Source: a virus
Virus record (IMG/VR): IMGVR_UViG_3300033155_000884
Location: 1 to 25,843 of that record
DNA: 25,843 nucleotides
Direction: 5' to 3' (one strand)
Every line of letters begins with the position of its first letter. The first letter of the stretch is position 1. Below, one piece after another: positions 9,831 to 25,843 of this stretch. The notes under the pieces were generated by a model, which worked only from the letters and a program-made list of their open reading frames with translations, was not told the DNA's origin and did not search any database. The position numbers and the translations under genes are program-made.

Positions 9831-10445
9831 ATGGCTGACTGGACACAAGGCGACGAAACCAGCGCGCTAGACCATCAACTGGTAACCCACCCGGCGGTTA
9901 TCAAGGGCAACGCCGTTACGTGTACGGAATGGGATTCGGTCTTCTTGACACTGTTCCACGCGCTGGTTGAGGCAGTAGCAAATACCAACCCAGGGACATT
10001 TGTTGTTCGCGGTACGTTAGCCGGAAACGGTGACGATGGTTGGGTGATCCTCGGCAAGTTCACTTGTAGCTCCGGGACCGTCAACCCTGAAGTGTTGACC
10101 GCCGATGAGCCACCGGGCGAGACCGTCATTGCCGTGGCGAGTACGGCCGGCGCGTACGCTTCCGGCGAGTGGTGTTACCTCGACGATATTAGCCATATAG
10201 TTCAAAGCGAGTGGCGACGCATCGAATCCGTGCAGGCGAACACGTCGGTCACGTTGGTCGATGGACTGACGGCCGCGAAGAACAACACGGACAGCGATGT
10301 TATGTATGACATCGCCGACGTGTTCTTCTTGTCAATCGACGTTCGCGCACTGAAACGGTTCCGAGTTGACTTCGAGCACGGCGGTGCGGCCGGCGCAAAC
10401 TGCCACGTCAAGGGAACCTATGTCGCCGCAACGGATTTTGAATGA
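9831..10445 (+). CDS. Hypothetical beta-rich virion-type protein
   Basis: The 204-residue protein starts 1 base after the preceding stop, behind GAGGAGGACTAGG. It is beta-rich, with strands such as PGTFVVRGTLAGNGDDGWVI and the C-terminal KRFRVDFEHGGAAGANCHV. One segment, GETVIAVASTAGAYASGEW, resembles repeated turns seen in phage baseplate or fiber proteins. No family is recognised. Its stop overlaps the LamG-domain gene start (ATGATG), so the two are probably translated together and may form one structure. Confidence 0.65.
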   Translation: MADWTQGDETSALDHQLVTHPAVIKGNAVTCTEWDSVFLTLFHALVEAVANTNPGTFVVRGTLAGNGDDGWVILGKFTCSSGTVNPEVLTADEPPGETVIAVASTAGAYASGEWCYLDDISHIVQSEWRRIESVQANTSVTLVDGLTAAKNNTDSDVMYDIADVFFLSIDVRALKRFRVDFEHGGAAGANCHVKGTYVAATDFE

Positions 10446-11629
10446 TGATTGAGACGATCGCCAAACCGCAACTCTGGCTGCCCGGCATCAACCGGGGCCA
10501 CCAGCTTGCGCGCGGTCTCATCGGCGACTGGCCGTTGTGGGAGGGCACCGGCCAAGGCGTGATGGACGTGGCCAGCGGTAACGGCTCGCTCGACGGCACC
10601 GTCACCGGGGCGACGTGGGTGGGGAGTCAGTATGGGTATGCGCTGGAGTTCGACGGAGCAAGTAATCACCGTGTAACGGGTAGCGGTGCGTCATGGTTTC
10701 CCTATGCGTCCGACATGACGGTATCGTGTCTAGTGCGATTCGACACAATCGCCAAGGAGAAGATTTGTTGGTCGTGGGGGATTGACAACGGATACGGTAG
10801 TAACGAGATAGAGTTGAACACCAATTCATCAGATGGTGGCGTGCAATTCATGTGGAACACGGAGGCAACGGCAAGGGTCACGATTCCGTTGGCGGCTGAC
10901 ACGTGGGGGCATGTGGTATGTCAACGTCAAGGCACTAATATTCAGGCGTGGCTCGATGGGCAATCAGTTGGTACGGACGCAGGCGCTGGTAACCTGTTCT
11001 ACACTACTCACTCGTTACTACTGGGAGGTCCGGTCACGGATACACGGCATTTCGACGGACAGGTGTCGCTGTTCGCCGTCTGGGATCGTTATCTTACCCC
11101 CACCGAAATCGCCGGCCTCTACGCCGATCCGTTCGCGCGGCTGCGCCGGCGGTCGTCGGCCGCGGTGTTGAGTGCGGCAGCTGGCGCGCCGTCCGGTGCG
11201 ATCTCCGGCAACGCAACCGTGACGTTCACGGCAGCGGGTACGGTCAAGGGCACGGGCTCGTTGTCGGGCAGTGCAACCACGACATTCACCGCAGCCGGGA
11301 CCATCGGCGGTACGGGCTCGCTTTCCGGGGCCGCCACCGTGAGCTTCACCGTGGCCGCTACGATCTCAGCAACGGCGTCGATCAGCGGCAGCACGACGGT
11401 CACATTTACGGCCGCCGGCACGATCCGCGATCTGAGCGGGGCCATTGAGGGATCGGCGACCGTTACGTTTACCGTCGCAGCCACGATCCGGAAGAGGATC
11501 ACGGGACCCTATACGATTGCCGCCGGGCAGGCCTACGTTACCGGGCAAGCGGCGGGGCAAGCGTTCGATACCGGCGCGGCAGCCGGGCAAACCTACCTTA
11601 CAGGAGCGGCGGCCGCACAAGCCGCGTAG
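10442..11629 (+). CDS. LamG/concanavalin-like domain protein with C-terminal tandem repeats
   Basis: The 395-residue protein has a LamG-type (Laminin_G_3, concanavalin-like) domain at about residues 20-230. The signs are HQLARGLIGDWPLWEG, ALEFDGASNHRV, MTVSCLVRFD, the TWGHVVCQRQGTNIQAWLDG strand pair, and the closing FDGQVSLFAVWDRYLTPTEIAGLYADPF, which is highly characteristic. LamG domains commonly bind carbohydrate. The last 145 residues are five 20-residue Ser/Ala/Thr-rich repeats followed by three and a half 10-residue repeats, likely an elongated beta structure. Planctomycete and marine phages often carry such virion proteins. A head-surface or tail adhesin is likely; its place between capsid and connector genes favours a head appendage. 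Confidence 0.82.
   Translation: MMIETIAKPQLWLPGINRGHQLARGLIGDWPLWEGTGQGVMDVASGNGSLDGTVTGATWVGSQYGYALEFDGASNHRVTGSGASWFPYASDMTVSCLVRFDTIAKEKICWSWGIDNGYGSNEIELNTNSSDGGVQFMWNTEATARVTIPLAADTWGHVVCQRQGTNIQAWLDGQSVGTDAGAGNLFYTTHSLLLGGPVTDTRHFDGQVSLFAVWDRYLTPTEIAGLYADPFARLRRRSSAAVLSAAAGAPSGAISGNATVTFTAAGTVKGTGSLSGSATTTFTAAGTIGGTGSLSGAATVSFTVAATISATASISGSTTVTFTAAGTIRDLSGAIEGSATVTFTVAATIRKRITGPYTIAAGQAYVTGQAAGQAFDTGAAAGQTYLTGAAAAQAA
11195..11488 (+). repeat. Five tandem repeats of about 60 bp in the LamG-domain gene
   Basis: Five units encode a 20-residue consensus close to GSLSGSATVTFTAAGTIxxT (the last unit is 17 residues and one spacer residue is inserted before it). DNA copies differ at many third positions, so the repeat is old or selected at protein level. 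The alternating Thr/Val/Phe pattern predicts short beta strands stacked along an axis. Confidence 0.85.
11519..11626 (+). repeat. 30-bp tandem repeats at the 3' end of the LamG-domain gene
   Basis: Three full units and a partial one encode the 10-residue repeat AAGQ(A/T)(Y/F)xTG(Q/A): AAGQAYVTGQ, AAGQAFDTGA, AAGQTYLTGA and AAAQAA, ending at the stop codon. The unit is different from the 20-residue repeats just before it. Confidence 0.85.
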
Positions 11630-14960: not shown

Positions 14961-15439
14961 AGCTGAATACCGCTGGATTTAAGGCGATGACGCGCCGGCA
15001 GATGGAGGCCGGGATTGCGGCCGCGACGGTCGACCTCCACCGGATCGCTCGAAAGAAGGCGGGGATTCCAAACCCCGGCGTGACGGTCACTAGCACCCGG
15101 GCGAGGGCGGGCGGGAACAAGTCGTCACGGACGGAATATCCGACGTCATCGAGACCCGGGGAATCACCACGGCGTCGAACGGGATTCGGCCAGAAGGGGA
15201 TTGTCATGGGGGTTCATGGCCTTGAGGGCCGCGTCGGATATACGAGGCTGGCCCGGTATATGACGTTTCATGAACTGGGAATCCGGTATCACAGGAGCGG
15301 CGGAGAGACGCGGGATAAGCGAGGCCGGTTCCTCGCACGCGGCGGCATACAGCGCCGGCCGACGATTGTCCCGGCGCTTAAAAGGAATCGCGCTCGGCTC
15401 ATATTGATTATGAAACGAGCCGCACAGGCGAAACGATGA
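14945..15439 (+). CDS. Head-tail joining protein, HK97 gp10-like
   Basis: The 164-residue, very basic protein has an N-terminal helix with AGIAAATVDLHRIARKKAG, a variable Arg-rich middle, and the family-typical end YMTFHELGIRY...RPTIVPALKRNRARLI, in which the E-x-G followed by R-P-x-x-x-P-A-L motif marks gp10/minor tail proteins. The GGAGGTGA ribosome binding site lies inside the preceding gene, with a 16-base overlap. These proteins act at the neck, between head-closure and tail terminator. The next gene starts with an ATGA overlap. Confidence 0.77.
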   Translation: MATRLKLNTAGFKAMTRRQMEAGIAAATVDLHRIARKKAGIPNPGVTVTSTRARAGGNKSSRTEYPTSSRPGESPRRRTGFGQKGIVMGVHGLEGRVGYTRLARYMTFHELGIRYHRSGGETRDKRGRFLARGGIQRRPTIVPALKRNRARLILIMKRAAQAKR

Positions 15440-15855
15440 GCATCAACCTCGGACAATACCTGCACGCGCGATGGGCTGCCGATACGACGCTCAACGGTTT
15501 GCTTGATTCATCCAAGTTATCAACGGGACTCGCACCTGACTCGGAGTTCCCTTATGCAACGATCACTTGGCCCGGGAATACGGCGGGTGGCTGGACGAAC
15601 GATGGAGCGTCGTTGGACCGCATTGGCGTGCGGATTACGGTATATCATGGGCGGGATAATTACGATGATGGCAAGGCCATTGTCAGTGCGATACGAAACG
15701 CCTACAGCCGGGCGGACTTCGCTGTGGGTGGCGGCGGGCGGTGCATCAATATGCAATATACCGGGGACGAGGAACTCCAAGACGAGGAAGACGACTGGTA
15801 TTTCGTGATTGACTTCGAGGCCCAAGTGCATACCCTGGCAGGATCGGGAGCGTGA
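15436..15855 (+). CDS. Tail terminator/tail completion-like protein
   Basis: The 139-residue protein follows the gp10-like gene, where tail terminators (gpU/gp17-like) are encoded. Order of elements: a helix (LGQYLHARWAADTTLNGLL), FPYATITWPG strand, DRIGVRITVYHGRDNYDDG, a helix KAIVSAIRNAY, and the DWYFVIDFEAQVHT closing strand. That helix, strand, helix, strand layout matches the DUF3168-like tail completion group. The C-terminus is LAGSGA. ATGA overlap with the preceding gene. Confidence 0.72.
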   Translation: MSINLGQYLHARWAADTTLNGLLDSSKLSTGLAPDSEFPYATITWPGNTAGGWTNDGASLDRIGVRITVYHGRDNYDDGKAIVSAIRNAYSRADFAVGGGGRCINMQYTGDEELQDEEDDWYFVIDFEAQVHTLAGSGA

Positions 15856-16397: not shown

Positions 16398-16814
16398 ATG
16401 TCATCCTACAGCGGAAAAGACGGGACGATTTGGATTACTGGAAACGAGGTGAGCCCCATTGGGAACTGGAAGTATCGGGAGACTTCCAACAACCCGGCGT
16501 GGGCCGATAACACCACGGCGGGCGTCAAGACCCGCGTGGCCGGCGTCAAGGATTCGTCAGGATCGTTCGAGTTCGTTCTGGAATCCACGGAAACGCTGCC
16601 GCTCGATATCGGGGATACGGCAATCCTGATCCTCGATATCGACGGCACCGAGACGAACACGATCACGGTCCCGGTCATCATCGACGAAATCGGCGAGATC
16701 GAGTGTGATATCAATGATGGCGAGAAGATGATGGTACCATACACCTGGTCTGGTACGGGCGCGGCAACCAAGGCCGGCGTGTTGGCCGTGGCGACGGGAG
16801 GTTCCGGATCGTAA
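16398..16814 (+). CDS. Probable major tail tube protein
   Basis: The 138-residue beta-rich protein sits just before the tail chaperone genes, the usual place of the major tail protein. Strand-turn order GKDGTIWITGNEVSPIGNW, FEFVLESTETLPL, GDTAILILDIDG, EIECDINDGEKMMVPYTWSG fits a compact tube fold with the W/Y-rich closing strand. It ends ATGGSGS. The ATG at 16398 has AAAGGAG about 10 bases upstream; the frame stays open to 16260 but that part overlaps the previous gene. The stop TAATG overlaps the next start. High expression is expected from the ribosome binding site. Confidence 0.72.
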   Translation: MSSYSGKDGTIWITGNEVSPIGNWKYRETSNNPAWADNTTAGVKTRVAGVKDSSGSFEFVLESTETLPLDIGDTAILILDIDGTETNTITVPVIIDEIGEIECDINDGEKMMVPYTWSGTGAATKAGVLAVATGGSGS

Positions 16815-17425
16815 TGGCCTACCTCGACGAACTCACCGGCGCACCGGAAACGGCGACGATTGGGGGAGTGAAGTATTCCCTCTCGCCGTTGGCAATCGAT
16901 GATTGGGCGGTGATCCAGAAGCGGATCATCGCCCGGCGGCCCGATCCGATCGAGGCGGCAACCCGGCTTGCGGCCGGGGCACCGGAAGCCGTGGCCCGCG
17001 AGATTCTCATGAAGGCCTACGGTGATGCCCAGAGATCCGATATCGTGACCACCGAGGAGTTGGACGCCTGGCGGTTTTCGTATGAGGGCGCCCAGTGCCA
17101 GTTCTTCCTGGCAATCCGTAAGAACCATCCGGAGATCACCGAGGACCGCGCGGCTGCGCTGCTGGAAATGTACGGCCGCGAATACCTAGCCGAAGTGACA
17201 GCGCAGTTGCAAGAGCGGTTCCCGGAGGCGACCGAAGAGACCGTAGCGGCAATGATCGCCGGACAGGAACGGTCGATGCTCCATTCAGTCGTGAGCTCGA
17301 TATCGGGACTCCCCCGGGGAAACCCTCAGAGCCCGCCGGAGACGGCGGGCCAATCAATTGGGACGGCTTCTTCTTCACCCTCCGGCAACGATACCGATGG
17401 ACACACGAGCAAATCGGAAAGCTGA
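16814..17425 (+). CDS. Tail assembly chaperone G (zero-frame product)
   Basis: The 203-residue protein is the short member of the tail assembly chaperone pair, placed between tube and tape-measure genes. It is largely helical (AIDDWAVIQKRIIARR, EAVAREILMKAYGDA) and acidic, with a Ser/Asp-rich C-terminal tail after about residue 170, where the zero frame leaves the -1 frame. Chaperones of this type coat the tape measure and recruit tube subunits, but are absent from the virion. The overlap with the tube gene (TAATG) couples the two. The tail after the slip site (SPSGNDTDGHTSKSES) looks unconstrained, as expected when it only overlaps the functional -1 frame. Confidence 0.85.
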   Translation: MAYLDELTGAPETATIGGVKYSLSPLAIDDWAVIQKRIIARRPDPIEAATRLAAGAPEAVAREILMKAYGDAQRSDIVTTEELDAWRFSYEGAQCQFFLAIRKNHPEITEDRAAALLEMYGREYLAEVTAQLQERFPEATEETVAAMIAGQERSMLHSVVSSISGLPRGNPQSPPETAGQSIGTASSSPSGNDTDGHTSKSES

Positions 17426-17583
17426 CAATCGCCCAGGCGCTGGACGCTCTGAAGCAGAAACCCACGCGCACCGGCCGCGTCTCATTGTCTACCGTGGGAG
17501 CGGCTGCGGTCTATCGTCAACGCCTGCACGACGAGCGTTCCGCTTGGGTTGAAGGAATGATCCGTGGCACTCAATCAATTTGA
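16814..17583 (+). CDS. Tail assembly chaperone GT (-1 frameshift product)
   Basis: A -1 shift at the slippery heptamer (17317-17323) would fuse the first 170 residues of G to 86 residues read in the other frame (codons from 17323 to the TGA at 17581-17583), giving about 256 residues. The extension is clearly coding: INWDGFFFTLRQRYRWTHEQ then IGKLTIAQALDALKQ, the R-x-x-x-S/T-x-E-Q-I-x-x-L-T pattern of gpT-like extensions, with a helical end (YRQRLHDERSAWVEGMI). No independent start codon with a ribosome binding site opens this part. Its stop lies 20 bases inside the tape measure gene. GT is the less abundant product, needed for tape measure/tube recruitment. Confidence 0.85.
17317..17350 (+). 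promoter_or_regulatory. -1 programmed ribosomal frameshift signal (slippery site and stem-loop)
   Basis: The heptamer GGGAAAC at 17317-17323 is in the right phase: zero-frame codons GGA and AAC slip back to GGG and AAA. After a 7-base spacer (17324-17330) comes a perfect stem, GCCCGCCG (17331-17338) with CGGCGGGC (17343-17350), closed by a GAGA loop. Lambda G/GT uses the closely related GGGAAAG. Heptamer, phase, spacing, structure and the coding character of the -1 frame all agree. Confidence 0.92.
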
Positions 17584-19510
17584 ACTCGCCGAGGCGTACG
17601 CCAAGCTAACCGTCCGCGACGGTGAGTTCAATCGTGCGATTGGCCGCACGGAAATGTCCCTGAAGCGATTGCAGGGCACGCTGGACGCCGCGGCCCGCAA
17701 GGCTCAGATGTTTCTGTTGGCCGGCGCGGCAGCGATCGCCGGCGTGATGAAGGTCACTTCCGACGCAGAAGAAACGATGAGCAAGTTCCGTATAGTCTTC
17801 AAAGGGCAGGCGGATGAGGCACTGGAATGGGCGAAGAAACTCGGCGAGAATGTCAAGCGGAGCCATTTCGATATCATCGGATTTATGGCCCGCTTTCAGG
17901 ACACCTTCGTCCCGATGGGTATTGCTCGCGAAGAAGCTACGAAGCTGTCGAAGACAATGACCAAGTTGACTATCGATCTAGCTAGCTTCAACAACGAGAA
18001 CGAAGCGGAGACGGCAAGCCTACTAACCGCGGCTTTGACTGGCACCCACGATGCCGTACGACGGTACGGTATTGTGCTTTCGGCATCTACTCTGAATCAA
18101 GAGTTGATGAATATGGGCATCGCGAAGGGTATTCGTGGTGCGACCGAATTACAGAAGACACAGGCACGGCTCAACCTTATGCTGAGCATGACGGCCGATG
18201 CCCAGGGGGACGCGGCCCGGACGTCGGATAGCTTGGCGAATCAATGGAAGGATATGATATCAGACGTCAAGAAACTAGCGATTCAGTTTGGCCAGCAGAT
18301 GCTTCCCGCAATTATTGCGATCATCGAAGATGTAAAGAAGCTCATTGATTGGCTAAGTAGTCTATCCGATGAGACGAAAAAACTTATCGGGGAGTGGGGC
18401 CTGTGGGCCGTCAAGGCCGCGCTGGTTGTCACTGTGTTAGCCAAAGTAACGAGTGGGGTAATCAGCCTGACGGCGATGATAAAGAAACTGGCGGTCGCAA
18501 CCGGAATGCTCAATGCGGCATCGATGCTCGGCGGAGGTCTTGCCGGTATTGTTGGCGGCGGCGGGGCGAAAGTCTTTCGCGGTCGGGCGGCTGGCGCTGC
18601 GATGGCGGGGGCCCCGCTGGTTGCTTCCAGGATCGGCGGCTTGGCTAGTCGCGGCGGGGGCCTGGCCAAGATGTTTGGCTTTACGGGGCTTGCTGCGGGC
18701 AGCGGGGGCTTGCTCGGGATGCTTGGCCTTGGGGGTCTTGCGGGCGCGATAGGCGCGGGGATCATCGGCGAAGGGATTATGCACCCACTCCGGGGCCAGA
18801 AGGCCCGTAAAGACAAGGCGCTTGACGAAGAAATTATGAAGAAGAACGAAGAGACGATGCGCCACGCCAAGCGGGTGTGGATTGATATCAATGATAACCA
18901 CCAGAGGAACCTGGATATCTTCGCCCGTGCCGGCGAGCGGGGCCGCAAGGCAGCAGAAGCCGGGTCCAAGAGTTCTGCGGCCCATCAGCTTGGGCTCCTT
19001 CAGGAGTGGAAGAAGAGTCAAGCGGCGGCGTTGGAGAATGCCCAGGCTTTCGAGACGGCTGCGAAGGAAGCCGGGCATTTGGGCGAGAAGGGTTCGCCGG
19101 CAGTCAAGGCGTTCACCGAACAGGTGGAGGCGATTGACAAGGCGATCGCGAAGCTAACGGCGAGCATCGCGGAGGCCGCGGTAGAGGAGGCGGCCTTGGC
19201 AGCGAAGAAGGCCGAACAGATCGCACAACTCAACGATATGCGGCGGGAGACTACGCGGACCCAGGCTAGCGTGGCGGGGCGGTTCCATGAGCGCGAGCGG
19301 AAGTTGATGGACGCTATCCGAAATCCCGGGCGCGGCGTCACCTTCCGCGATACGGGCTTTGCGTTCGGGGCCTCGTTCCAGCAGGCCGTAGGCTCGCAAA
19401 TCACCGGAGCGATGGAGCAACAGTTGGAGGTGCAGCGTAGCTCGCTGGAAGAACTGAAGGGCATTCACCAGGAACTCGCGGAAGTCCATGAATTGAACTG
19501 GGGGGCCTGA
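17564..19510 (+). CDS. Tail tape measure protein
   Basis: The 648-residue protein is the longest in the window and follows the chaperone pair. N-terminal helical region, then the phage-tail minor domain signs FGFMARFQDTFVPMG-like segment at about residue 105 and LTIDLASFNNENEAETASLL near 140, continuing GTHDAVRRYGIVLS. The middle (about 280-410) is hydrophobic Gly/Ala-rich (AAGSGGLLGMLGLGGLAGAI), a likely membrane-inserting part used in DNA delivery. The C-terminus is coiled-coil (QQLEVQRSSLEELKGIHQEL). The start is GTG 17564 with GAAGGA 7 bases upstream, overlapping GT by 20 bases. Length predicts a tail of about 100 nm by the usual 1.5 angstrom per residue rule. Confidence 0.92.
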   Translation: MALNQFELAEAYAKLTVRDGEFNRAIGRTEMSLKRLQGTLDAAARKAQMFLLAGAAAIAGVMKVTSDAEETMSKFRIVFKGQADEALEWAKKLGENVKRSHFDIIGFMARFQDTFVPMGIAREEATKLSKTMTKLTIDLASFNNENEAETASLLTAALTGTHDAVRRYGIVLSASTLNQELMNMGIAKGIRGATELQKTQARLNLMLSMTADAQGDAARTSDSLANQWKDMISDVKKLAIQFGQQMLPAIIAIIEDVKKLIDWLSSLSDETKKLIGEWGLWAVKAALVVTVLAKVTSGVISLTAMIKKLAVATGMLNAASMLGGGLAGIVGGGGAKVFRGRAAGAAMAGAPLVASRIGGLASRGGGLAKMFGFTGLAAGSGGLLGMLGLGGLAGAIGAGIIGEGIMHPLRGQKARKDKALDEEIMKKNEETMRHAKRVWIDINDNHQRNLDIFARAGERGRKAAEAGSKSSAAHQLGLLQEWKKSQAAALENAQAFETAAKEAGHLGEKGSPAVKAFTEQVEAIDKAIAKLTASIAEAAVEEAALAAKKAEQIAQLNDMRRETTRTQASVAGRFHERERKLMDAIRNPGRGVTFRDTGFAFGASFQQAVGSQITGAMEQQLEVQRSSLEELKGIHQELAEVHELNWGA

Positions 19511-21683: not shown

Positions 21684-22715
21684 GTGAAAATCTATTGCAT
21701 CGGAGGCCCCGCCGACATAGGCGGAGCCAATACGGAGCTATGGCACACGGTCAAGCTGTGGCGATCGTTCGGCGTTGACGTCACGATCTTGCCGCAGCAT
21801 GGCGCGGAGGTGACTATTGCATGGAGAAAACGGCTTGACGGTATCGGATGCCAGCTTCGGGCAGAACTACCGAAGGGCGGTGTCTGTGTTGGCTTCTGTA
21901 ATTCGCACTATCGCGCGATTGCGAAGGCGCTTCGGGCTCAGGGCAACCGGCTCGTGTACGTGCCCTGTATGTGCTACCAATTCCCGGACGAAGCCAAGCG
22001 GGAGTTGTTCGATCACTACATTTTCCAGACGCACTATCAGGCATCGCGGATACTGCCGGCGCTAGAACACAGAGGGCTCCCGCAGTCGCACTCTTCGATC
22101 ATCCGGGGTGCGTTCGATGTCACTGAGTTCGACCCGTCCAGCCGCTTGCGCCGCCGACGTCAGGGGGAGCCGTTCGTTATCGGGCGGCTCTCCCGGTCGG
22201 TTGCGCCAGTGGCCCTTGGCCGTGGCGGTACAGTGCCCGACGTCGAGAAATACCCACGCGGTCTCTGGCAGCAGTACGAGGCGATCGACTACCGACCGCT
22301 TCGCGCGCGGGTGATGGGCTGGAGCGGTATCATCCAGGGCCGTTGCGGCAAGCCGCCGGCGTGGGCCGAGGTCTTCCGCGATGGGGCGATGCCGGCGAAA
22401 GAATTTCTCCAGTCGATCCACGTTCTGATTCCCGGCATCGGCTGCTGCGAGGAGAACTGGTCTCGCGTTGGATTGGAGGCTATGGCCTGCGGCGTGCCGG
22501 TCGTGGCGGAGGATAAGGGCGGCTGGCGAGAAATGACCGGCGTCGTTCGGGCGCTTACGCCGGGCTCACAGGCCCTATTCCCATCGGCCTGGGCTCGTGA
22601 CCCGGAAACGTACGAGGCCAACCGGCAGCGGGTACGCGCGGCGGTCGAGGAACTCTGCAGGCCAGAACCAATTTGGCAGGCGTGGCTGTCAATATTCGAG
22701 AGGCTGGAAGCATAA
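21684..22715 (+). CDS. Glycosyltransferase, GT-B fold (GT4-like)
   Basis: The 343-residue protein begins MKIYCIGGPADIGGANTEL, a GT-B Rossmann strand and glycine loop, and has at residues 256-275 EENWSRVGLEAMACGVPVVA. Glu257 and Glu265 make the E-x7-E motif of retaining GT-B enzymes that binds the sugar nucleotide, followed by DKGGWREM. It should transfer an activated sugar; donor and acceptor are unknown. Start GTG 21684 is 12 bases after the tail-fiber stop, with GGCGCAAG upstream. It is the first of a run of alternating glycosyltransferase and methyltransferase genes, so a common glycan pathway is likely. Confidence 0.85.
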   Translation: MKIYCIGGPADIGGANTELWHTVKLWRSFGVDVTILPQHGAEVTIAWRKRLDGIGCQLRAELPKGGVCVGFCNSHYRAIAKALRAQGNRLVYVPCMCYQFPDEAKRELFDHYIFQTHYQASRILPALEHRGLPQSHSSIIRGAFDVTEFDPSSRLRRRRQGEPFVIGRLSRSVAPVALGRGGTVPDVEKYPRGLWQQYEAIDYRPLRARVMGWSGIIQGRCGKPPAWAEVFRDGAMPAKEFLQSIHVLIPGIGCCEENWSRVGLEAMACGVPVVAEDKGGWREMTGVVRALTPGSQALFPSAWARDPETYEANRQRVRAAVEELCRPEPIWQAWLSIFERLEA

Positions 22716-22724
22716 GGAAACGTA

Positions 22725-23312
22725 ATGTCTACCGATATCGAAATTACCGCGAGGTTTATCCGGGAGTGCGGCGAGGTTCGCAGCAACCTCAAGGAGAAGC
22801 GGCACTTCCAGCAAGTGGCCACCGAGATCGGAAGTATTCTCGCGTGGCTCCACCCGCACCGGAAGGGCTTTGTATCTTACCTTGAGATAGGCGCGGGGGC
22901 TGGGTTGCTTGCCGCAACAGTCACGCGATTACTCGGCATCCCAAACGCCTACCTAATCGATAACAACAAGTACGACTGGGCACACGATCAGCGGGCCTTA
23001 AATATACCCGATGCAATTCAGTGGGAAGGCGACTCCACCAGCAAGGAGTGCGCAGCGGCGGTTGCTGGTTGGGATGCGCTGATGGATGTCGTCTTGATTG
23101 ACGGCGGGCACTCTCGCGAGCAGGTCACATCTGATACCCTGTTAGCCCTGTCAATTGCCTCCCCGGGCTGTTGGTTTATTTACCACGACTTTGAGTCTCG
23201 GAAAGGCGTGCAGCAATGCCTTCGGGACGTGGACGCCGGGAAGATTCCGGGGCTCGTGCGTATCGTTCAGTTCGGCAATACAATCCTTTATCGAGAAACG
23301 AGACAAACATGA
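22725..23312 (+). CDS. Class I SAM-dependent methyltransferase (Methyltransf_24-like), first copy
   Basis: The 195-residue protein has motif I YLEIGAGAG at residues 52-60, an acidic residue at the end of strand 2 (AYLIDNN), and the DVVLIDGGHS segment at 121-130 with a following YHDF. This V-x-I-D-G-x-H layout is typical of the Methyltransf_24 group, whose members often methylate sugars or small molecules. It lies 9 bases after a glycosyltransferase gene, behind AAGGAAACGTA, and its stop overlaps the start of the next glycosyltransferase (ATGA). It probably O-methylates a sugar laid down by the neighbours; this is inference. Confidence 0.82.
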   Translation: MSTDIEITARFIRECGEVRSNLKEKRHFQQVATEIGSILAWLHPHRKGFVSYLEIGAGAGLLAATVTRLLGIPNAYLIDNNKYDWAHDQRALNIPDAIQWEGDSTSKECAAAVAGWDALMDVVLIDGGHSREQVTSDTLLALSIASPGCWFIYHDFESRKGVQQCLRDVDAGKIPGLVRIVQFGNTILYRETRQT

Positions 23313-24034
23313 ATGACCTTCATGTCTATACCGTATCGACCGCCCCTCTTGCGGAAGTGCCGCTCAGCAAGCGGGCGCGCCCGGACATCATGCTTGCGTC
23401 AGCGGCGGCCTTCGGTGTCGACCTGCACGTTGAGCTTACGCCAGCAGTCGGAACCAGCCGGATGCGGCATAAGATCGTGGGCGCGAGGGTGGTTCTCGAA
23501 AGACTGCCTCCCGATGATATCCTTCTGATGTCTGACGGCTGGGATGTATTCTTTTCTGGTAACGCTGCTGGCATCTTGGAGGAATACCGCAAGCTGGATT
23601 CCCCGGTTGTGATCTCGGGGGAGTGCCGACTCTTCCCGCGGCTCGATGAGTTTGCAAACTACCCGGAGGCGCCGACTAAATACCGATACTGCAACTCCGG
23701 AGGCATCATTGGGACCGTTCGAGAATACAGGGAGCTTCACGACCACTATCTCGCAACGGAGCGATGGGACCCGGATTGGGGCTGCCAGCGTCTCTGGCAT
23801 AGTGCCTTCCTCGCGAGGCCGGATCTCTTGGCGATCGACTATCAGTGCAGGATCTTCCAGACCCTCGCCCAGCCGGATAATGGCACGCCGCCGACAGCAG
23901 ACCTGCATTTCGTCGATGGCAGAATCCACAATCGAGACACCGGCTCGACCCCTTACCTCGTTCACGGCAACGGGCCACGGACACAATTGGCGGTGCAATT
24001 ATGGGAGAAACAGAAGGCGGCCTTGCAGAACTAA
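23309..24034 (+). CDS. PLOD/procollagen-type glycosyltransferase
   Basis: The 241-residue protein resembles the glycosyltransferase domain of PLOD (procollagen lysyl hydroxylase/glycosyltransferase) proteins, also present in giant viruses and some phages. The GT-A metal-binding motif is LLMSDGWDVFF with Asp76 and Asp79 (compare the family D-A-Y-D). An ISGECRLFPRLDE segment corresponds to the family's A-E-x-x-C-W-P, then FANYP, YCNSGGIIG at 127-135, and the C-terminal HGNG at 219-222. All main family motifs are in order. The ATG at 23309 overlaps the methyltransferase stop. Metazoan members glucosylate galactosyl-hydroxylysine; the phage acceptor is unknown. Confidence 0.8.
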   Translation: MNDLHVYTVSTAPLAEVPLSKRARPDIMLASAAAFGVDLHVELTPAVGTSRMRHKIVGARVVLERLPPDDILLMSDGWDVFFSGNAAGILEEYRKLDSPVVISGECRLFPRLDEFANYPEAPTKYRYCNSGGIIGTVREYRELHDHYLATERWDPDWGCQRLWHSAFLARPDLLAIDYQCRIFQTLAQPDNGTPPTADLHFVDGRIHNRDTGSTPYLVHGNGPRTQLAVQLWEKQKAALQN

Positions 24035-24633
24035 GGCGGCGGTACCCATGGCCGGACAAGATCCCGGAGGTTCCGGAAGACCGACATGGCTGGTTTGGCG
24101 TGGCCAATCGCAAGGCGACCTCGGAAGCGCTCAGCGGAAAGAGCCGCGTCGTTCTTGAGTTGGGTGCATGGCTTGGGACATCAGCATCCCTGCTTTGCCA
24201 GTACGCGCCAAACGCAACCGTGATCTCCATTGACCATTGGAGGGGAAGCTCGGAGCATCAGCGGGTCCCGTCGTGGAAGGCTAAACTCCCGACACTTTAC
24301 GAGACCTTCCTCGTCAACTGCTGGGCGCTCCGCGATCGCCTGATCCCAATGAAGACCACGACGCTCGAGGGGATGGCTGAGATTGCTGACCTAGGCATCC
24401 AGCCGGATCTTGTTTATATCGATGCGGCCCATGAGGCAGAACCGGTATTCGCGGATGTCTCAACCGCACACGACCTTTTTCGCGGGGCCCGTATCATCGG
24501 CGATGACTGGACCTTGACGTCTGTCCGGCAGGGTGTAATCCGTGCCGCCCATGGCCAGCAACTAATCACGCACGGCAATACATGCTGGGAACTCCTGATC
24601 CAAGGGCGCCAATGGCCGAGCCACCGAAAATGA
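24001..24633 (+). CDS. Class I SAM-dependent methyltransferase, second copy
   Basis: The 210-residue protein has motif I VLELGAWLGTSA at residues 51-62, strand-2 ISIDHW at 76-81, DLVYIDAAHEAE at 136-147 and GDDW at 167-170. Order and D-x-x-x-I-D-x-x-H pattern match the same broad family as the methyltransferase at 22725, but the two are clearly divergent, so they are not a recent duplication. The start at 24001 overlaps the previous gene by 34 bases and has a weak GGCGG upstream. The stop overlaps the next ATG at 24630. Confidence 0.8.
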   Translation: MGETEGGLAELRRRYPWPDKIPEVPEDRHGWFGVANRKATSEALSGKSRVVLELGAWLGTSASLLCQYAPNATVISIDHWRGSSEHQRVPSWKAKLPTLYETFLVNCWALRDRLIPMKTTTLEGMAEIADLGIQPDLVYIDAAHEAEPVFADVSTAHDLFRGARIIGDDWTLTSVRQGVIRAAHGQQLITHGNTCWELLIQGRQWPSHRK

Positions 24634-25619
24634 AACTACTCTTCGCCTACAACCACGAGCTACACGCAGCGGCTCTCCTACGGTCGGCTGGAGCGTTCGC
24701 CCACTATGGGGTGCAGTTTATCCCTACTGACTTTGACCCGGTGCCGGACAGGCTGATTGACTGGGCCGAGGTCATCCTTCTCCAAGAGCCGCCGGTCCGG
24801 GATGCTGTAGTGGACTGCGGAAAGCCGGTGATCTTGCTCGAGCGTATCGACGGCGCACAACTGCGGGCCGCTCGGGAGTATCTTCCTCGTGTCGCTGGTG
24901 TAATCAAAGGATATCTATTCCGTGACCGGGATAGAAACAACGCTACGTTCGATCGCGCCCACGTCGAGATCCTTCACTGTGCCGGGATTACCGGGGCGAT
25001 GCCAAGACACCGTGAGGATTCACCGGAACCCAAGATTGCGGTCCCAGATTTACGCCGGATGTTCGCGGGCTACGGATTCGGGGCACACGCGCACATGGGG
25101 CGCCTGGTAGAGACGGTGATCGATTTCGACGTAGCGCGACCATACGATGCGAGTTTCCACGGCATCGTGGAATACAATCACAGCGAGATCGAGACGCACC
25201 GCAAGGCGGCCGTTAGCGCCGTGGAAACATGGCCGGGGCCGACGCTGTACGGTGCAGGTCGACCGCTGCGGCAAGAAGACTATTACCTAAGCCTGTTGCG
25301 ATCAAGGGCGGTCTTGTCGCCGTGGGGCTGGGGCGAGGCGTGTCATCGCGACTACGAGGCCATGCTCCTGGGTGCGGTGCTCATCAAGCCCGACACCTCG
25401 CATGTGAAGTGCTGGCCAGATATTTTCGCAACGGGGAAAACCTACGTTCCCTGCGAGCCCGATTTCTCGGACGCCCACGCGAAGATCGCTCACGTCCGGG
25501 ATCATTGGGACGACTATCGGACGCTAAGGGAACGCGCAAGGCACATGGCCCAACTTGCCTGGCGGCCCGGCTTGATTGCCGAGCGGATCGTCAATGTTGT
25601 CCGGAGGCTACTCGCATGA
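24630..25619 (+). CDS. Glycosyltransferase, GT-B-like, third in the cassette
   Basis: The 329-residue protein begins MKLLFAYNHELHAAALLRS. At residues 230-255 it has SPWGWGEACHRDYEAMLLG then AVLIKPD, the C-terminal nucleotide-sugar region S-P-x-G-x-G-E-x-x-x-R-x-Y-E-A-x-x-x-G seen in phage and bacterial glycosyltransferases that act on O-chains. CWPDIF follows. An upstream ATG (24612) is in frame, but ATG 24630 gives the ATGA overlap used throughout this cluster. Donor and acceptor are unknown. The stop overlaps the next gene's ATG, linking it to another methyltransferase. Confidence 0.77.
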   Translation: MKLLFAYNHELHAAALLRSAGAFAHYGVQFIPTDFDPVPDRLIDWAEVILLQEPPVRDAVVDCGKPVILLERIDGAQLRAAREYLPRVAGVIKGYLFRDRDRNNATFDRAHVEILHCAGITGAMPRHREDSPEPKIAVPDLRRMFAGYGFGAHAHMGRLVETVIDFDVARPYDASFHGIVEYNHSEIETHRKAAVSAVETWPGPTLYGAGRPLRQEDYYLSLLRSRAVLSPWGWGEACHRDYEAMLLGAVLIKPDTSHVKCWPDIFATGKTYVPCEPDFSDAHAKIAHVRDHWDDYRTLRERARHMAQLAWRPGLIAERIVNVVRRLLA

Positions 25620-25843
25620 TAACCCAGCAGCAGATCGAGGCACTGGCGGCCATTCATAATCCGAAGGATACGGCAGAAAAGTTTTGCCGCGACTGCGTGA
25701 AGTGGGATCGTATAGCAACGCACGTTTCCCAAGGCCTCGGGTTGCATGAGTCAGAGCCGAAGCGAATACTCGATCTTGGTTGCGGGTTTGGCTACTTCGC
25801 GAACGTGTGCCAGCAAATGGGGCACATGGTGACGGGTTTGGAT
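25616..25843 (+). CDS. SAM-dependent methyltransferase (partial, cut by window end)
   Basis: The first 76 codons are visible. The start overlaps the preceding glycosyltransferase stop as ATGA. A 25-residue helical N-terminus with CRDCVKW is followed by motif I ILDLGCGFGYFANV, the SAM-binding glycine loop, and the beginning of strand 2 (HMVTGLD). The clean D-L-G-C-G-F-G motif differs from the two earlier methyltransferases and resembles the UbiE/COQ5-type group. The rest lies beyond the window. Confidence 0.8.
   Translation, partial: MITQQQIEALAAIHNPKDTAEKFCRDCVKWDRIATHVSQGLGLHESEPKRILDLGCGFGYFANVCQQMGHMVTGLD

Follow-up and report, generated by a model that had tools for sequence, protein, structure and literature searches.

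The gene at 16814–17425 very probably encodes a lambda-type gpG/gpGT tail assembly chaperone, in which a programmed −1 frameshift at GGGAAAC, aided by a hairpin, yields a 256-aa G–T fusion (Table 1). Positions refer to the window, the whole 25,843-nt stretch of viral DNA analysed here. In the proposed mechanism, the product of this gene would be a tail assembly chaperone resembling lambda gpG. We infer that slippage occurs, with an efficiency such that a minority of ribosomes would move back one base on G_GGA_AAC, where GGA AAC would re-pair as GGG AAA. The 8-bp hairpin with a GAGA loop, positioned 7 nt downstream, would aid slippage, and the slipped ribosomes would read the −1 frame to 17583 and thereby complete the fusion. 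If the roles match those in lambda, the G part would form a coat on the tape measure protein, and the tail tube protein would be recruited by the rarer G–T molecules.

Table 1 Features of the predicted frameshift region and neighbouring tail genes
Feature	Position	Strand	Basis
Tail terminator / tail completion gp17-like protein, upstream in the tail module	15436..15855	+	Pfam PF11367, E 8.5e-9
G-like ORF, 203 aa, ATG start; 170 aa up to the slip site	16814..17425	+	G homologues in L001 and L003; AlphaFold model
Slippery heptamer G_GGA_AAC, in phase	17317..17323	+	L001 with the identical heptamer at the homologous place
T-like extension, −1 frame, 86 codons past the heptamer; 256 aa as fusion with G	17317..17583	+	Codon usage; weak similarity to L001 T; helical model
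7-nt spacer, CCTCAGA	17324..17330	+	Direct sequence reading
8-bp perfect stem with GAGA tetraloop, presumed stimulator	17331..17350	+	Sequence and folding
Tail tape measure protein, GTG start, GAAGGA upstream	17564..19510	+	PHROG tape measure families, best E 7e-20

Slip site and reading frames

The start of the G-like ORF overlaps the upstream stop codon as TAATG. GGGAAAC is located near the 3′ end of this ORF and, read directly from the sequence, is in its phase as a slippery heptamer of the form X_XXY_YYZ. The 0-frame codons are GGA (17318) and AAC (17321), and the −1 codons are GGG and AAA, exactly as an earlier note on this DNA had stated. Across the 30 main ORFs of the window that were tested, this is the only in-phase GGGAAAN.

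The −1 frame is open for 88 codons counted from the heptamer, and its stop codon (17581–17583) falls 20 bases inside the tape measure gene. The 86 codons beyond the heptamer and the overlap with the tape measure start agree with the earlier note, which also held that the gpT-like extension has no start of its own. This is correct in the sense that no start codon yields the whole T part; the frame does contain starts, namely TTG at 17485, GTG at 17494, and ATG at 17557, all of them late. The predicted junction peptide of the fusion contains LPRGNPSEPAGDGG.

Near the heptamer, the coding signal moves out of frame 0 and into frame −1. With a codon-usage score trained on other genes, frame 0 is favoured before the heptamer (mean +0.38 per codon). 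From the heptamer to the tape measure start, frame −1 scores +0.14, compared with −0.26 for frame 0 and −0.35 for frame +1, and the preference for the −1 frame is also present beyond the G stop.

A second in-phase heptamer, A_AAC_CCT (17320), overlaps the first and recurs in L001, the virus contig retrieved with G itself. We set it aside, since the data are accounted for by GGGAAAC; to our knowledge, A_AAC_CCT is not a recognised efficient slip site. The two overlapping in-phase heptamers, GGGAAAC and AAACCCN, together make up GGGAAACCC, which is present at three diverged loci (window 17317–17326, L001 2776–2785, and L004 2536–2545). Transcriptional slippage is set aside because the site has no long run of A or T.

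The hairpin downstream of the slip site

The stem-loop GCCCGCCG-GAGA-CGGCGGGC (17331–17350) starts 7 nt past the heptamer, within the 5–9 nt at which a putative stimulator is looked for, and spacer, stem, and loop (17324–17350) are as the earlier note described them. On the + strand of the 25.8-kb window there are just three separate perfect stems of at least 8 bp with loops of 3–8 nt, and this is one of them. Therefore, the chance that such a stem begins 5–9 nt past a given site is estimated at about 6e-4. The fold of an 84-nt stretch is ordinary for its composition (z −0.9), and the local 45-nt fold is unusual (z −2.2).

Across the relatives described below, the 45 nt past the heptamers fold with a median z of −0.9 against shuffles, compared with 0.0 for control segments of the same genes. 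Folds below z −1.5 are found past 36% of the heptamers and in 13% of the control segments (p 0.001). Strong hairpins are present in the window (z −2.2), L004, L006, L011/L014, L018, L019, L034, and L042. However, L001 and L003, the relatives closest in G, have no comparable hairpin when the 45 nt past the heptamer are folded. Since the hairpin is strong in many relatives but missing in these two, it is likely a stimulator and not a conserved requirement. The expectation of the earlier note that relatives would keep both heptamer and stem is thus borne out for the heptamer, together with the −1 extension, and only in part for the stem.

Conservation of the arrangement in relatives

Most relatives came from searches with the tape measure protein, which took no account of the heptamer and gave about 50 loci beyond L001; five annotated phage regions were added. 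G/T-like overlaps were located through ORF geometry alone, and removal of near-duplicates left 38 loci, the window included. An in-phase slippery heptamer lies inside the overlap at 29 of the 38 loci, GGGAAAN at 11, and none at the remaining 9. In-phase heptamers occupy 40 of 1145 codon sites in the overlaps, compared with 144 of 31519 in the remainder of G and in the genes for the tape measure protein (odds ratio 7.9, p 1e-20, with loci treated as independent, which is only roughly true). For GGGAAAN the counts are 11 in the overlaps and 6 elsewhere (odds ratio 51, p 1e-12, the independence of loci being just approximate). By phase, 42 heptamers are in phase, compared with 11 and 17 in the other two phases.

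L001, the one contig retrieved with G itself (27% identity in the best segment), carries GGGAAAC in phase at the homologous place, followed by an 81-codon −1 extension that stops at the tape measure gene, which comes immediately next. Heptamer and −1 extension thus hold their position across highly diverged relatives. In some of these the G stop codon immediately follows the heptamer: L011, L014, and L026 have A_AAA_AAC (at 2589, 2589, and 2479) and then TGA or TAA, and L016, L027, L041, and L043 have other heptamers in the same position relative to the stop.

In several relatives, the syntenic proteins match named chaperone families: G has matches to Phage_TAC_11 (PF11836), and T to Phage_TAC_6 (PF09550) and to several tail assembly chaperone families of PHROGs. 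Microbacterium phage Gack and Arthrobacter phage PinkFriday have homologous tape measure genes, and upstream of these a joined tail assembly chaperone CDS is annotated. Together with the heptamers of the relatives, these matches and annotations support the G/GT chaperone fusion that the earlier note predicted.

Searches of Pfam and PHROGs with window G and T themselves give no match to a named chaperone family. With a T profile, the −1 ORF is the best match in the window, but the match is weak (E 0.56); window T and L001 T are similar, with an E of 0.0036 obtained from a small set. Among annotated phages, window G, window T, L001 G, and L003 G have no match, a scan of genome contigs with window G finds no relative, and scans of viral sequences with T and with the G of L001 and L003 find no new one. 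The AlphaFold model of G (pLDDT 75) shows an N-terminal β hairpin followed by helices. In a fold search it is matched best by uncharacterised phage proteins, with named chaperones just among the weak matches, and a search of the PDB gives no meaningful match. The T model is helical (pTM 0.42), and a search of BFVD gives no significant match.

The −1 frame could be unused, with the 203-aa G protein as the sole product and the open frame a product of chance in GC-rich DNA. The openness is indeed not remarkable alone, as about 10% of in-gene sites in the window have an equally long open −1 frame. However, codon usage past the G stop, the similarity to L001 T, and the conserved position of the −1 arrangement all speak against this reading, which we consider extremely unlikely. 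Internal initiation could instead make the T part alone from one of the three late starts. The first of these is preceded by 56 of the 88 codons and lies beyond the region that resembles the T of relatives, so that the conserved part would stay unused, and this route is highly improbable. There is likewise scarcely any probability that the two frames are a single gene that was split, be it by a mistake in sequencing or assembly or by a genuine frameshift mutation. Any single-base loss gives rise to overlapping −1 ORFs, but here the break falls exactly at a canonical in-phase heptamer with a hairpin behind it, and dozens of relatives have an equivalent split at a heptamer, which speaks strongly against error or mutation. 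Programmed frameshifting at GGGAAAC is the reading that we prefer.

Genomic context and known systems

The G-like ORF follows the major tail protein region and directly precedes the tape measure gene, the identity of which is clear. Upstream of the G-like ORF are the tail terminator/completion gene and two more small ORFs of the tail module; profile searches did not identify the tail tube gene itself in the window. Elsewhere on the + strand, the ORF at 625–1473, near the terminase end, matches the Mom protein family (PF25680, E 1.3e-29), a type of DNA-modification protein known from phage Mu. A short SGSATVTFTAAGTI-like motif is repeated at 11119–11500, at the end of the ORF at 10442–11629. 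Behind the tail module, a series of glycosyltransferase- and methyltransferase-like genes occupies 21684–25843 and includes a match to the PLOD glycosyltransferase domain at 23312–24034 (PF25342, E 4.7e-19).

The arrangement resembles lambda G/GT in its place ahead of the tape measure gene, the −1 direction, the GGGAAAN-type heptamer near the 3′ end of G, and a T extension that overlaps or abuts the next gene. The slip site of lambda is GGGAAAG, whereas that of the window ends in C and is followed by a strong 3′ hairpin, and window G and T have no sequence match to a lambda-type family. In lambda, gpG attaches to the tape measure protein and gpGT uses its T part to recruit the tail tube protein, at a G to GT ratio of about 30:1 (PMC5009743; Levin 1993 and Xu, Hendrix and Duda 2004, as cited therein). 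In TP901-1, a permanent fusion leads to non-infectious particles (PMC4493119). As a chaperone slip site, GGGAAAC has been reported or predicted in Caulobacter phage Colossus (PMC3556154), Burkholderia phage KL1 (PMC3483164), and the haloarchaeal virus HCTV-1 (PMC5009743); these are different viruses, likened to the window by their slip site.

According to the tape measure protein, the closest named relative is Methanoculleus virus Blf4 / L4768 (39% identity), which has the same order of G ORF, in-phase heptamer, −1 ORF, and tape measure gene. It differs in its heptamer, AAAAAAC, and its G is weakly similar. In the L4768 region (L053 2173–2828, NC_074642.1), the heptamer is in phase at 2562 and the −1 ORF extends to the tape measure start. 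In the record, two hypothetical genes are annotated separately, and a joined CDS is absent. Judging from its sequence, a chaperone frameshift seems to have been missed in the annotation of this archaeal virus.

The example is very probably sound but ordinary, a further case of an arrangement long known from phage lambda. We give a rather small chance to the window and a few relatives representing a G/T chaperone family that Pfam and PHROGs do not list as such, from an uncultivated lineage whose host is possibly an archaeon. An archaeal host is considered because the closest named tape measure relative of the lineage is a virus of a methanogenic archaeon; if the host is archaeal, the window would add one more case of GGGAAAC frameshifting in archaea. 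Profile searches overlook this gene pair, for which the analysis supplies the right annotation. Tools that predict frameshifts in uncultivated viruses may be benchmarked against the roughly 30 diverged loci at which a heptamer is in phase. It also shows again that the G/GT arrangement outlasts nearly all sequence similarity.
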